Part shown: positions 26,566-29,020 of the stretch, in pieces
Numbering within the stretch: the stretch's first letter is position 1
Layout: the number at the start of each line of letters is the position of its first letter
Assembly (NCBI RefSeq): GCF_014644295.1
Contig: NZ_BMKK01000002.1
Coordinates: forward strand, 620,001-684,000
DNA from: Emticicia aquatilis
Lineage (GTDB): Bacteria; Bacteroidota; Bacteroidia; Cytophagales; Spirosomataceae
Length of the DNA: 64,000 nt
Direction: 5' to 3'
The notes under the pieces: generated by a model
Told to the model about the DNA's origin: nothing
Databases searched by the model: none
The model's input: the letters and a program-made list of their open reading frames with translations, nothing else
Position numbers and translations under genes: made by a program

Positions 26566-27720
26566 ATGACACACGTAGAATTTGAAATTGACGAACAATT
26601 GGAAATGATTCGTCAAAGTGCTAAAGACTTTGCAGAAAACTATATCCGCCCACACTTAATGGACTGGGATGAAGCACAGATTTTTCCAGTTGAATTATTT
26701 CATAAAATGGGAGAATATGGTTTCATGGGCATACTTGTGCCTGAAATGTATGGAGGCTCTGGGCTTGGTTATCAAGAATATATCACCATTCTGGACGAAA
26801 TCTCAAAAGTTTGTGGCTCAATTGGTTTATCAGTAGCGGCTCATAACTCGCTTTGTACTAATCATATTTTAACATTCGGCAACGAAGAACAAAAACAAAA
26901 ATATTTACCAAAACTGGCATCAGGCGAATGGATTGGGGCTTGGGGATTGACTGAAACGGGAACTGGTTCTGATGCTGGTGGAATGTCAACAACGGCAGTT
27001 GAAGATGGCGATTATTTTGTATTGAATGGTTCTAAGAATTTTATTACCCATGCAATTAGCTCAGAGGTGGCGGTAGTAATTGTAAGAACTGGAGCGAAAG
27101 GAGATTCTCACGGCATGACTGCTTTGATTATAGAAAAAGGCACTCCTGGTTTCACGGCAGGTAAAAAAGAAAATAAACTCGGCATGCGTGCCAGCGAAAC
27201 GGCTTGTTTATTTTTCGATAATTGCCGAGTACATAAAGAAAATGTATTGGGACACATCGGCGATGGTTTTGTGCAATCTTTGAAAATTTTAGATGGTGGA
27301 CGAATTTCTATTGCAGCACTTTCACTTGGAATTGCTCATGGTGCTTATGAAGCAGCTTTAAAATATGCCCAAGAAAGAGAACAATTTGGCAAAGCAATCA
27401 TTCATTTCCAAGGAATTAGCTTCAAACTGGCCGAAATGGCAACTAAAATTGAAGCAGCAGAATTATTGACCCGCAACGCAGGAACGCTCAAAAATCAAGG
27501 CAAAAAAATGACAAAAGAAGGAGCAATGGCCAAACTTTTTGCATCTGAAACAGCCGTTGAGGTAGCTACCGAAGGTATTCAGATACATGGTGGATATGGC
27601 TATACCAAAGATTTTCCAGCCGAAAAATTCTACCGTGATGCCAAACTTTGCACTATTGGAGAAGGAACTTCTGAAATTCAGAAATTGGTTATTAGTAGAG
27701 AGATTGTGAAGCACCCCTAA
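26566..27720 (+). CDS. Acyl-CoA dehydrogenase
   Basis: 384-residue FAD flavoenzyme making trans-2-enoyl-CoA, with electrons passed to ETF. Motifs: [19 protein letters not shown] and [10 protein letters not shown] for FAD/substrate binding, [12 protein letters not shown], and a C-terminal [19 protein letters not shown] followed by [10 protein letters not shown]. The Glu in GEGTSEIQ occupies the catalytic-base position of short- and medium-chain enzymes, unlike isovaleryl-CoA dehydrogenases, which have the base elsewhere. I start at MTHVEFEID, preceded by AACCTA at 26551. The present C-terminus (KHP-stop) is encoded by the palindromic element inserted here. Before insertion it would have read KHEIN and overlapped the lyase start. 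Confidence 0.92.
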
Positions 27721-28192
27721 CCCCTAAAGGGGAATACCTAATTCTCGATAAATTTAACTTAGAATTCAAATTAATCTTTAAAGCGGAGGTTTCAAAGCTA
27801 TGCAAGACAACATGGAAAATATGTTCTATGGAGCTAATCCAGAAATTTTTGAATTTGCTAAAAGGAACAGAGCGAATCCTACACCTGCTGAAGATTTACT
27901 TTGGAATTATCTGTGCAAAAATCAATTGGATGGTTTACGTTTTAAAAGACAACATCCAATAGGTCAGTACATAGCTGATTTTTATTGTCACTCAGTAAAA
28001 TTAGTCATAGAGCTTGATGGAAGTATTCATCGATTACCCCAAGTCCTTCAAAACGACTTAGAAAAAGAAGATTTTATCAAAGCAAATGGCTTAAAAATTT
28101 TAAGATTTACAAATCAAGAAGTTTTTATAAATATAAATGACATCCTAAATAAAATTAGAGAATCAGCAAATCCCCCTTTAGGGGTTAGGGGT
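27713..28192 (+). mobile_element. DUF559-bearing element bounded by inverted palindromes
   Basis: Left end ACCCCTAACCCCTAAAGGGG (27713-27732) and right end, in inverted orientation, CCCCTTTAGGGGTTAGGGGT (28173-28192) are exact complements over 20 bases. Each end itself contains the palindrome CCCCTAAAGGGG or its complement. Between them is one complete ORF, a DUF559 nuclease-like domain. Removing 27713-28192 joins AAGC to ATGAAATTAATTGA, giving a dehydrogenase ending KHEIN-stop that overlaps an intact HMG-CoA lyase start, so the boundaries look exact. No target-site duplication is obvious. That it is mobile is an inference from this structure. Confidence 0.65.
27785..27789 (+). promoter_or_regulatory. 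Shine-Dalgarno-like site of the DUF559 ORF
   Basis: GGAGG, 10 bases before the ATG at 27800, inside the putative element. Consensus Shine-Dalgarno sites are almost absent from the rest of the window, so its presence sets the element apart from its host genes. Confidence 0.45.
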
Positions 28193-29020
28193 ATGAAATT
28201 AATTGAATGTCCACGAGATGCGATTCAAGGAATAAAGCATTTTATTCCAACTGAAAAAAAAATAAAATACATCAATTTACTGCTTGAAAGTAATCTTTTC
28301 GATACCATTGATTTTGGGAGTTTTGTTTCGCCAAAGGCAATTCCACAAATGGCTGATACTGCTGAGGTTGTGCGAGGTTTAGATTTGAGCCAAACCAAAA
28401 CCAAACTTTTGGCAATCATCGCTAACGAACGTGGAGCAACTGAAGCTTGCCAATTTGAGCAAATTTCTTATTTGGGTTATCCGTTTTCAATTTCAGAAAC
28501 CTTTCAGCTTCGTAATACAAACGCAACTATAGCTGAATCTTTGGAAAGAGTAAAAGCGATTCAAGAAATTACAGAAAAAGCTGATAAACAATTGGTTATA
28601 TACATTTCGATGGGCTTTGGTAATCCTTACGGTGATGAATGGAATGCTGAAATTGCCATAAATTGGGTTGATGAATTGCAAAAACTGGGCATCAAGATTT
28701 TTTCTTTATCAGATACGGTTGGAGTTGCAACGCCTGAGTCAATTACATATCTTTTTGAAAACCTAATTCCCAAATATCCCAAACTTGAATTTGGAGCTCA
28801 TTTGCACACAACTCCTGATGCTTGGCAGGAAAAAGTAGATGCAGCTTATAACGCAGGTTGTAGAAGATTTGATGGTGCATTTTTGGGTTACGGAGGTTGC
28901 CCAATGGCGGCTGATGAATTGGTGGGTAATATGCCAATGGAGAATTTGATACCCCCGCCCCCTAAAGGGGAGTATAATATTGAACATTTCATATCAGCTT
29001 TTCAAGAATTAATAGCATAA
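27800..29020 (+). CDS. DUF559 nuclease-like domain fused to HMG-CoA lyase
   Basis: 406 residues in two parts. Residues 1-131 are a complete DUF559 domain of the Vsr/PD-(D/E)XK type: NPTPAEDLLWNYLCKNQLDG, RFKRQHPIGQYIADFYC, LVIELDGSIH, and LKILRFTNQEV, ending in NPPLGVRG encoded by the right palindrome. From Met132 (ATG at 28193) follows an HMG-CoA lyase of 275 residues: ECPRDAIQG, the TIDFGSFVSPKAIPQMAD stretch, SDTVGVATPES, the metal-binding GAHLHTTPD, and the active-site cysteine signature FLGYGGCPMAADELVGNMP. The lyase cleaves HMG-CoA to acetoacetate and acetyl-CoA. The C-terminal segment PPPPKGEY is encoded by a further palindrome copy. The lyase could also be made alone from 28193. It overlaps the crotonase start (TAATG). 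Confidence 0.85.
   Translation: MQDNMENMFYGANPEIFEFAKRNRANPTPAEDLLWNYLCKNQLDGLRFKRQHPIGQYIADFYCHSVKLVIELDGSIHRLPQVLQNDLEKEDFIKANGLKILRFTNQEVFININDILNKIRESANPPLGVRGMKLIECPRDAIQGIKHFIPTEKKIKYINLLLESNLFDTIDFGSFVSPKAIPQMADTAEVVRGLDLSQTKTKLLAIIANERGATEACQFEQISYLGYPFSISETFQLRNTNATIAESLERVKAIQEITEKADKQLVIYISMGFGNPYGDEWNAEIAINWVDELQKLGIKIFSLSDTVGVATPESITYLFENLIPKYPKLEFGAHLHTTPDAWQEKVDAAYNAGCRRFDGAFLGYGGCPMAADELVGNMPMENLIPPPPKGEYNIEHFISAFQELIA
28193..28195 (+). other. Inferred ancestral start codon of HMG-CoA lyase
   Basis: ATG directly after the right end of the element, in frame with the DUF559 ORF. The following residues MKLIECPRDAIQG are the usual N-terminus of HMG-CoA lyases, so this was probably the start before insertion and may still be used for internal initiation. 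Confidence 0.6.
28951..28974 (+). repeat. Palindromic repeat inserted in frame within HMG-CoA lyase
   Basis: ACCCCCGCCCCCTAAAGGGG, then AGTA: the same unit as the left end of the DUF559 element with three or four changes. It encodes PPPPKGE between NLI and YNIEHF near the lyase C-terminus and keeps the frame. It looks like a short, ORF-less copy of the element end. Confidence 0.65.

Follow-up and report, generated by a model that had tools for sequence, protein, structure and literature searches.

Architecture of the locus

The window, i.e. the whole stretch of 64 kb that was analyzed, belongs to a genome of 6.75 Mb and contains an acyl-CoA dehydrogenase gene and a gene for an HMG-CoA-lyase-like protein with a unit of 480 bp at their junction. 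The unit consists of a DUF559 nuclease frame between two inverted palindromes (Table 1).

Table 1. Features of the unit and of the adjacent genes in the window
Feature	Positions	Strand	Remarks
Acyl-CoA dehydrogenase	26566..27720	+	Pfam Acyl-CoA_dh domains; in relatives, own stop at nearly the same residue
Whole DUF559 unit, 480 bp	27713..28192	.
Left terminal inverted repeat, head ACCCCTAA plus palindrome CCCCTAAAGGGG	27713..27732	+	Imperfect likeness to the right end until about 27756
GGAGG, possible ribosome-binding site for the DUF559 frame	27785..27789	+
DUF559 nuclease coding part, 131 aa, without own stop	27800..28192	+	Domain proper 27851-28162; PF04480, E 8.9e-30
In-frame fusion of DUF559 and HMG-CoA-lyase-like protein, 406 aa	27800..29020	+
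Right terminal inverted repeat	28173..28192	-	Lyase ATG immediately after
HMG-CoA-lyase-like gene, native start	28193..29020	+	HMGL-like, PF00682
Single palindrome, in frame close to the lyase C-terminus	28951..28970	+

The sequence-only reading had described exact inverted repeats of 20 bases at both ends, each with the palindrome, and sequence comparison agrees. The left repeat (ACCCCTAACCCCTAAAGGGG) is the exact reverse complement of the right one over 20 nt, and the likeness of the two ends extends further inward with mismatches (about 44 bases at 82%). With these terminal inverted repeats the unit resembles a MITE or a TIR transposon; a target-site duplication was not found at the window copy, which is bordered by AAGC and ATGA. 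When up to one mismatch was allowed, CCCCTAAAGGGG matched three times in the window, compared with 0.06 expected matches.

The head of the left palindrome now supplies the stop codon of the dehydrogenase gene (TAA, 27718-27720). The DUF559 frame starts with the ATG at 27800, 10 nt behind the GGAGG, has no stop codon, passes the right palindrome and continues into the lyase gene, which is thereby lengthened in frame by 131 residues. Both effects on the neighboring genes had been proposed before. The description of the frame as a complete DUF559 ORF with its own GGAGG site was correct with respect to the domain, which is complete (PF04480), and to the GGAGG, but the frame lacks a stop codon of its own and is read as a fusion.

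The dehydrogenase-lyase junction in relatives

Homologues of the lyase were found in 45 of the 58 genomes searched, including the genome of the window itself, and ten junctions of relatives were read. None of them has a DUF559 gene at the place of the unit. Counted from the K of REIVK in the window, the dehydrogenase stops 0-2 residues later, with the endings REICK*, RELIKK*, REICKNI*, REITR*, REITRK*, REISL* and REISK*, and 0 to about 85 bases separate this stop from the lyase start in nine of the ten junctions (in the tenth, L136, the start was not placed). With the dehydrogenase ends of the relatives so close to one another and the lyase soon after in nine of ten cases, the unit is situated at a tight gene junction, and both genes were retained. 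It had also been claimed that deletion of the unit restores a dehydrogenase that ends with KHEIN and a stop. The joined flanks indeed read VKHEIN-stop, but this ending would lie four residues after the K of REIVK (two for the present VKHP*) and is absent from all ten junctions, and therefore the exact KHEIN ending was dropped as the ancestral state.

Palindromes were also observed elsewhere in these genes. A congener (G404) contains an in-frame inverted pair of about 70 bp in the lyase C-terminus, with a partly eroded right arm and without DUF559, and remnants of this type of pair are present in the lyase C-terminus of a second congener (G398) and of the window, where the single palindrome, which the sequence-only reading had not noted, is located. 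At the dehydrogenase-lyase junction of G398 (L129, around 1420-1490) a different inverted repeat, with arms like ACCACGTAGTCAT.AAGAACAC, is situated exactly at the junction.

The palindrome is a dispersed repeat at gene edges

Genome-wide, CCCCTAAAGGGG occurs in 89 exact copies, versus none for the pattern read backwards, and the same genome has a single DUF559 copy. The sequence context was read for all 89 palindromes (L001-L030, L040-L085). For 35 of them a convergent partner was found within 700 nt, and none had a divergent or direct partner. With gene edges taken from ORF calls, not annotation, 59 of the 82 copies with an outer frame had their outer head no more than 15 nt away from the start or stop of a gene (median 2 nt), whereas the inner side was this close in only 4 of 81 copies (median 81 nt). 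The repeats thus line gene edges, with their heads toward the gene. At least 11 copies include the stop codon of the neighboring gene (offsets -8 and -15).

Some short units of the genome have 32-55 nt of end sequence in common with the DUF559 unit. A search for retained DUF559 codons gave no clear remnant (best tblastn E 0.16), and the ends alone are shared; the short units are therefore not regarded as deletion derivatives of this kind, but could be non-autonomous relatives that are moved by the same or by another agent. A structured RNA at the palindromes was also considered; the search yielded one sub-threshold snoRNA match, which is located inside the lyase gene instead.

The sequence-only reading had compared the unit with RAYT/REP pairs. 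The genome has ten matches to Y1 transposases (RAYT-like), and exact CCCCTAAAGGGG was found at none of these ten loci when about 1.2-1.5 kb was examined on each side. As none of these ten loci has the palindrome beside its Y1 gene, the unit was not assigned to the RAYT/REP systems. Three RAYT-like loci (L034, L037 and L039) carry other C-G palindromes. At one of them (L037, contig 3 of the same genome) the RAYT-like gene has CCCCATTCGGGG on both sides, which is distinct from the palindrome family of the window.

DUF559 units in other genomes and host genes

DUF559 was detected in 222 of the 395 sampled genomes of the phylum, with 221 of the 395 over the family cut-off. The first loci fetched had DUF559 frames within MetH, LeuRS, HsdR and HsdS. 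Units were found in frame inside MetH (three sites), LeuRS, IleRS, MetRS, UvrA, MnmE, HsdR and a CoA-transferase, as well as fused ahead of HisF and ahead of the HMG-CoA-lyase-like protein; these host names were read from conserved motifs of the frames and do not come from annotation. The best 80 loci of a scan of named genomes comprised 45 with a long host frame and 35 that stand alone. The hosts were MetH site 1 (21 loci), HisF (9), MetH site 2 (4), IleRS (4), HsdR, MetH site 3 and MetRS (1 each) and others (4), in proportions that are biased by a query alignment rich in MetH. The family of the window (19 loci) further contributed two units each in MnmE, IleRS, MetH site 1 and a glycosidase-like gene, and one each in UvrA, a CoA-transferase and MetH site 3.

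Quantification of the inverted ends among these best 80 loci gave a clear result. Inverted repeats with a score of at least 12 surround DUF559 in 48 loci, compared with 6 of 480 control positions at the same loci; the other 32 loci have no inverted repeat with a score of 12. Under a strict definition, head-out palindromes are present at both ends in 28 of the 80 loci versus 0 of 480 controls, which bears out the proposal that DUF559 lies between inverted copies beyond chance, and the wrong orientation at both ends was never observed in the 80 loci. Single ends carry a head-out palindrome in 36 (left) and 35 (right) of the 80 loci, and in 5 and 6 of the 480 controls, respectively. Inverted repeats are equally common around stand-alone genes (21/35) and around fused genes (27/45). 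Inverted ends were also found at loci of a cyanobacterium (L193), Methylomonas (L203), Kiritimatiellae (L227) and Magasanikbacteria (L215).

Several loci were conspicuous in other respects. A contig binned as Candidatus Nitrotoga contains a Flavobacterium-like MetH with a DUF559 unit (L226) and is perhaps mis-binned. At L299 (G418) the DUF559 gene is situated between very long nested inverted repeats (score 81). Both DUF559 copies of a congener (L301 and L306, G400) have an in-frame stop, as if they were decaying after insertion. An origin of the protein from phages was rejected, as it matches 3 of 50,697 phage records with at most 39.6% identity.

Occupied and empty MetH alleles in Flavobacterium

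Of 150 Flavobacterium genomes, 138 yielded MetH, and 50 loci were read. These were the 30 best matches and 20 loci picked by hand, mostly by frame length, and therefore the share of occupied alleles is not a frequency. The site was readable in 48 loci, of which 13 were occupied and 35 were empty (L281 and L286 gave no reading). Empty alleles have LLPYIEASKQAGDKQGNGKILMATVKGD, occupied alleles LLPFIEASKRPPAPKGG..DUF559..APPSGAGGAGKILMATVKGD, so that the unit stands in place of about eight linker codons between the cap and B12 domains of MetH.

On a host tree built from the flanks of the 48 alleles alone, the supported branches force at least seven changes of state, a count that by itself does not separate gain from loss. 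The presence of the unit is patchy, and one and the same host site has switched repeatedly between occupied and empty among relatives, as is expected for homing. An example is an occupied Flavobacterium allele (G324) with empty nearest relatives on the MetH tree. Right up to the insert, its flanks differ from those of the nearest empty alleles no more than these differ from each other, which indicates that gain or loss concerned the unit itself and not a long part of MetH; transfer of a long MetH stretch along with the insert is thus unsupported for this allele. Gain is likelier than loss because the empty alleles retain the native linker. Flank identity around this insert is flat, with no co-conversion tract, and a single pair (L268/L279) gives a faint hint of one.

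Comparisons of unit and flank DNA did not yield uniform results. The unit is nearer than the flank in two close pairs (90.4 vs 85.4 and 86.4 vs 80.1), and this is the case in 21 of all 78 pairs. In the same two close pairs dS is lower in the unit (0.47 vs 0.84 and 0.61 vs 1.27), while it is higher for L272/L280 (1.64 vs 1.02), and a fourth pair was unusable. Fourfold sites showed no significant difference (best pair 18/25 vs 73/138, p 0.08), and dating by these sites was abandoned because they are too few. The DUF559 tree was computed from 122 rows and 105 columns (121 of the rows differ, as some loci entered twice), and 46 of its 118 inner branches have good support. It requires 18 host changes compared with 62.7 in shuffles, i.e. 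the nucleases cluster by host site, and switches between sites occur within MetH. Judged from these alleles and trees, horizontal movement of the unit is likely.

The nuclease is conserved and related to a homing endonuclease

The window protein belongs to DUF559, with a PF04480 match of 103.2 bits (curated cut-off 20.6), and has the PD-(D/E)XK residues D43, E54 and D56. All 122 of the 122 copies compared have these three residues as well as H60, Q34 and R85; the set was collected by similarity searching and does not contain the broken pair of G400. For the closest two pairs, dN/dS values of about 0.07 and about 0.11 were obtained, and these sequence comparisons show purifying selection on the nuclease.

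The AlphaFold model of the window protein has a pLDDT of 81.8. Its best fold match in the PDB is an endonuclease-like protein from Neisseria (3hrl), followed by the catalytic domain of the homing endonuclease I-Bth0305I (3r3p, E 1.6e-3), and a profile search placed the same two on top (8.5e-30 and 1.1e-5, respectively). The nuclease is thus homologous to a known family of homing nucleases, and the earlier comparison with homing endonucleases was apt. The EDxHD family, to which I-Bth0305I belongs, is Vsr-like. The domain alone has about 104 aa, which is short for the recognition of a long homing site. A model of a part of MetH with the insert was modest (mean pLDDT 72, pTM 0.44); two of its five low-confidence segments are the palindrome-coded stretches 173-191 and 308-315. 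Inside host genes, the palindromes would be expected to encode linkers rich in Pro and Gly.

Palindrome abundance, DUF559 and Y1 transposases

Counts of the motif CCCCN{3,5}GGGG were compared with those of its reversed pattern in the 395 genomes of the phylum and in 33 relatives. A strong DUF559 match was defined as E below 1e-15; the cut-offs were chosen in this analysis, and related genomes are not independent. Across the phylum, 40 of the 53 genomes with a palindrome excess of z>=3 had strong DUF559, compared with 122 of the 342 others (Fisher 5.8e-8), and the association was also found at z>=2 (3.5e-5), at z>=4 (1.9e-4) and in a rank test (5e-6). Within one class of 83 genomes strong DUF559 was present in 14 of 15 palindrome-rich genomes versus 22 of 68, and within one genus (g15) an excess was found in 5 of 9 genomes with DUF559 versus 0 of 14 without. 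The association was not significant at z>=3 in an order of 15 genomes (p 0.60) or in the 33 relatives (7/12 vs 7/21, p 0.27).

Exceptions occur in both directions. Strong DUF559 is lacking in 13 of the 53 palindrome-rich genomes of the phylum and in five palindrome-rich relatives, which include three of the four congeners without DUF559 (71/11, 98/11 and 78/18, forward/control). Conversely, two of the seven DUF559-bearing genomes of the genus of the window are not palindrome-rich. On a broad scale, DUF559 thus accompanies abundant palindromes, but a genome can be rich in palindromes at a given time without it. For the idea that the nuclease drives the spread of the palindromes, the outcome is mixed: DUF559 tracks the excess across the 395 genomes, but palindromes also spread independently of it, as in the palindrome-rich congeners and in the genome of the window with its ratio of 89 to 1, and this had been named in the sequence-only reading as evidence against a nuclease-driven element.

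These exceptions would be explained if DUF559 were passive cargo, i.e. if the palindromes were spread by another agent, be it a RAYT or some other trans-acting enzyme, and two of them happened to flank a nuclease gene so that the pair moved together occasionally. The ten Y1 transposase-like matches in the genome of the window are in line with this, and in 80 of the 83 genomes of the class the rank test favored Y1 (p 0.012) over DUF559 (p 0.041). However, the presence of Y1 is not associated with a strong excess in the same genomes (z>=3, 11/15 vs 33/65, p 0.15), and the RAYT-like loci lack the exact palindrome, some of them having other palindromes instead. A RAYT as the mover is therefore weakened. 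The invariant catalytic residues and the low dN/dS indicate a working enzyme and not an inert passenger, and units recur at the same host sites. Taken together, we regard the passive-cargo explanation as unlikely.

Further alternatives and the favored explanation

A second possibility is that DUF559 is a useful Vsr-like domain for repair or defense that was fused to host enzymes to the benefit of the host, its patchiness being due to loss. The nuclease is under purifying selection, and in Caulobacter the DUF559 protein VsrA is described, in the accessible part of the report, as a Vsr-like factor (PMC12907096). A weak PADLOC match to a restriction model (E 5.4e-4) also points this way, but the two PADLOC matches were both weak, and a defense system was rejected. 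A benefit is not evident inside MetH, LeuRS, IleRS, UvrA or MnmE or ahead of HisF, loss would have to restore the native linker that the empty alleles possess, and inverted palindromes are found at many borders. This explanation is thus improbable. A third possibility is that the unit in the window is a conventional TIR element or an insertion of the MITE type in which a nuclease frame is present by chance. This would be compatible with its terminal inverted repeats (20 exact and about 44 imperfect bases) and with the short related units of the genome, but is very improbable, because the window copy has no target-site duplication (AAGC / ATGA) and the survey found the same nuclease family between such ends in 28 of the best 80 loci.

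The best explanation takes the 480 bp as a single copy of a nuclease unit that is widespread, mobile, non-splicing and homing-like, and we assign it a probability of about 0.55. Such a unit consists of a DUF559 frame (PD-(D/E)XK, Vsr-like) between two palindromes with their C-rich heads outward. With an open frame and open palindromes, it can reside at gene junctions as well as in frame within host genes, where the nuclease would be kept as an extra domain of the host protein and not be spliced out. It is highly probable that the palindrome-bounded DUF559 unit is mobile, in frame and unspliced, and the earlier proposal of a compact mobile unit with a nuclease between inverted palindromes that is tolerated by its host genes is thus supported. 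Whether the nuclease itself drives the spread through homing is an even bet. Homing would be the likeliest route of persistence: we infer that the nuclease cuts alleles without the unit and that repair from an occupied allele copies the unit in. Copying by repair would tie nuclease lineages to their host sites (MetH, LeuRS, IleRS, HsdR and HisF), and jumps to new host sites would be rare. Somewhat more doubtful is the notion of a distinct homing class without self-splicing, which might invade soft linkers in frame, stay as a host domain, use the same sites across species and have ends that seed short non-autonomous units at gene edges.

Comparison with known systems

Several known systems share single properties with the DUF559 unit. 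I-Bth0305I (PDB 3r3p) has a homologous catalytic domain, and its nuclease is likewise tied to particular places in host genes. It is listed among the endonucleases of group I introns and has a long DNA-binding region, according to the portion of PMC3943268 consulted, whereas the DUF559 unit has no intein splice motif and no visible intron, encodes a short protein, is bounded by palindromes and leaves its frame in the host. Inteins are also site-specific, in-frame insertions with an endonuclease in conserved enzymes, but 13 of 13 MetH units lack the motif HN[CST] in the last 30 residues before the C-terminal border, and an intein was therefore rejected.

The palindromic elements of Rickettsia are, as here, palindromic and situated in frame in unrelated metabolic genes; as far as PMC10969869 was accessible, they have about 150 bp and a conserved peptide, whereas the DUF559 units have a conserved nuclease and fixed host sites. 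REP/BIME with RAYT (TnpA-REP) have dispersed palindromes with a directional head and convergent pairs, as in the genome of the window; in contrast, no Y1 gene was found beside a palindrome of the window type, and the three RAYT-like loci named above carry other C-G palindromes. VsrA of Caulobacter has the same domain but is encoded by a separate, SOS-linked gene, and the accessible text of PMC12907096 mentions no palindromes. DUF559 as a mobile in-frame unit was not described in the literature searched, which comprised titles and abstracts and left most subscription journals outside its coverage, and no such units are described in the available sections of PMC6006769, PMC12907096, PMC3943268 and PMC10969869.

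The persistence of homing endonucleases in conserved genes is attributed to introns or inteins that conceal them (PMC3943268, in the part available). Here, a nuclease that is kin to homing enzymes appears to remain without splicing in MetH, aminoacyl-tRNA synthetases, UvrA and further proteins, and its active site is under purifying selection. The existence of empty and occupied alleles in close relatives makes this a directly testable system. If the favored explanation is true, it would provide a role for DUF559, a common domain of unknown function, would explain odd fused frames and would link dispersed palindromes to a candidate mover.
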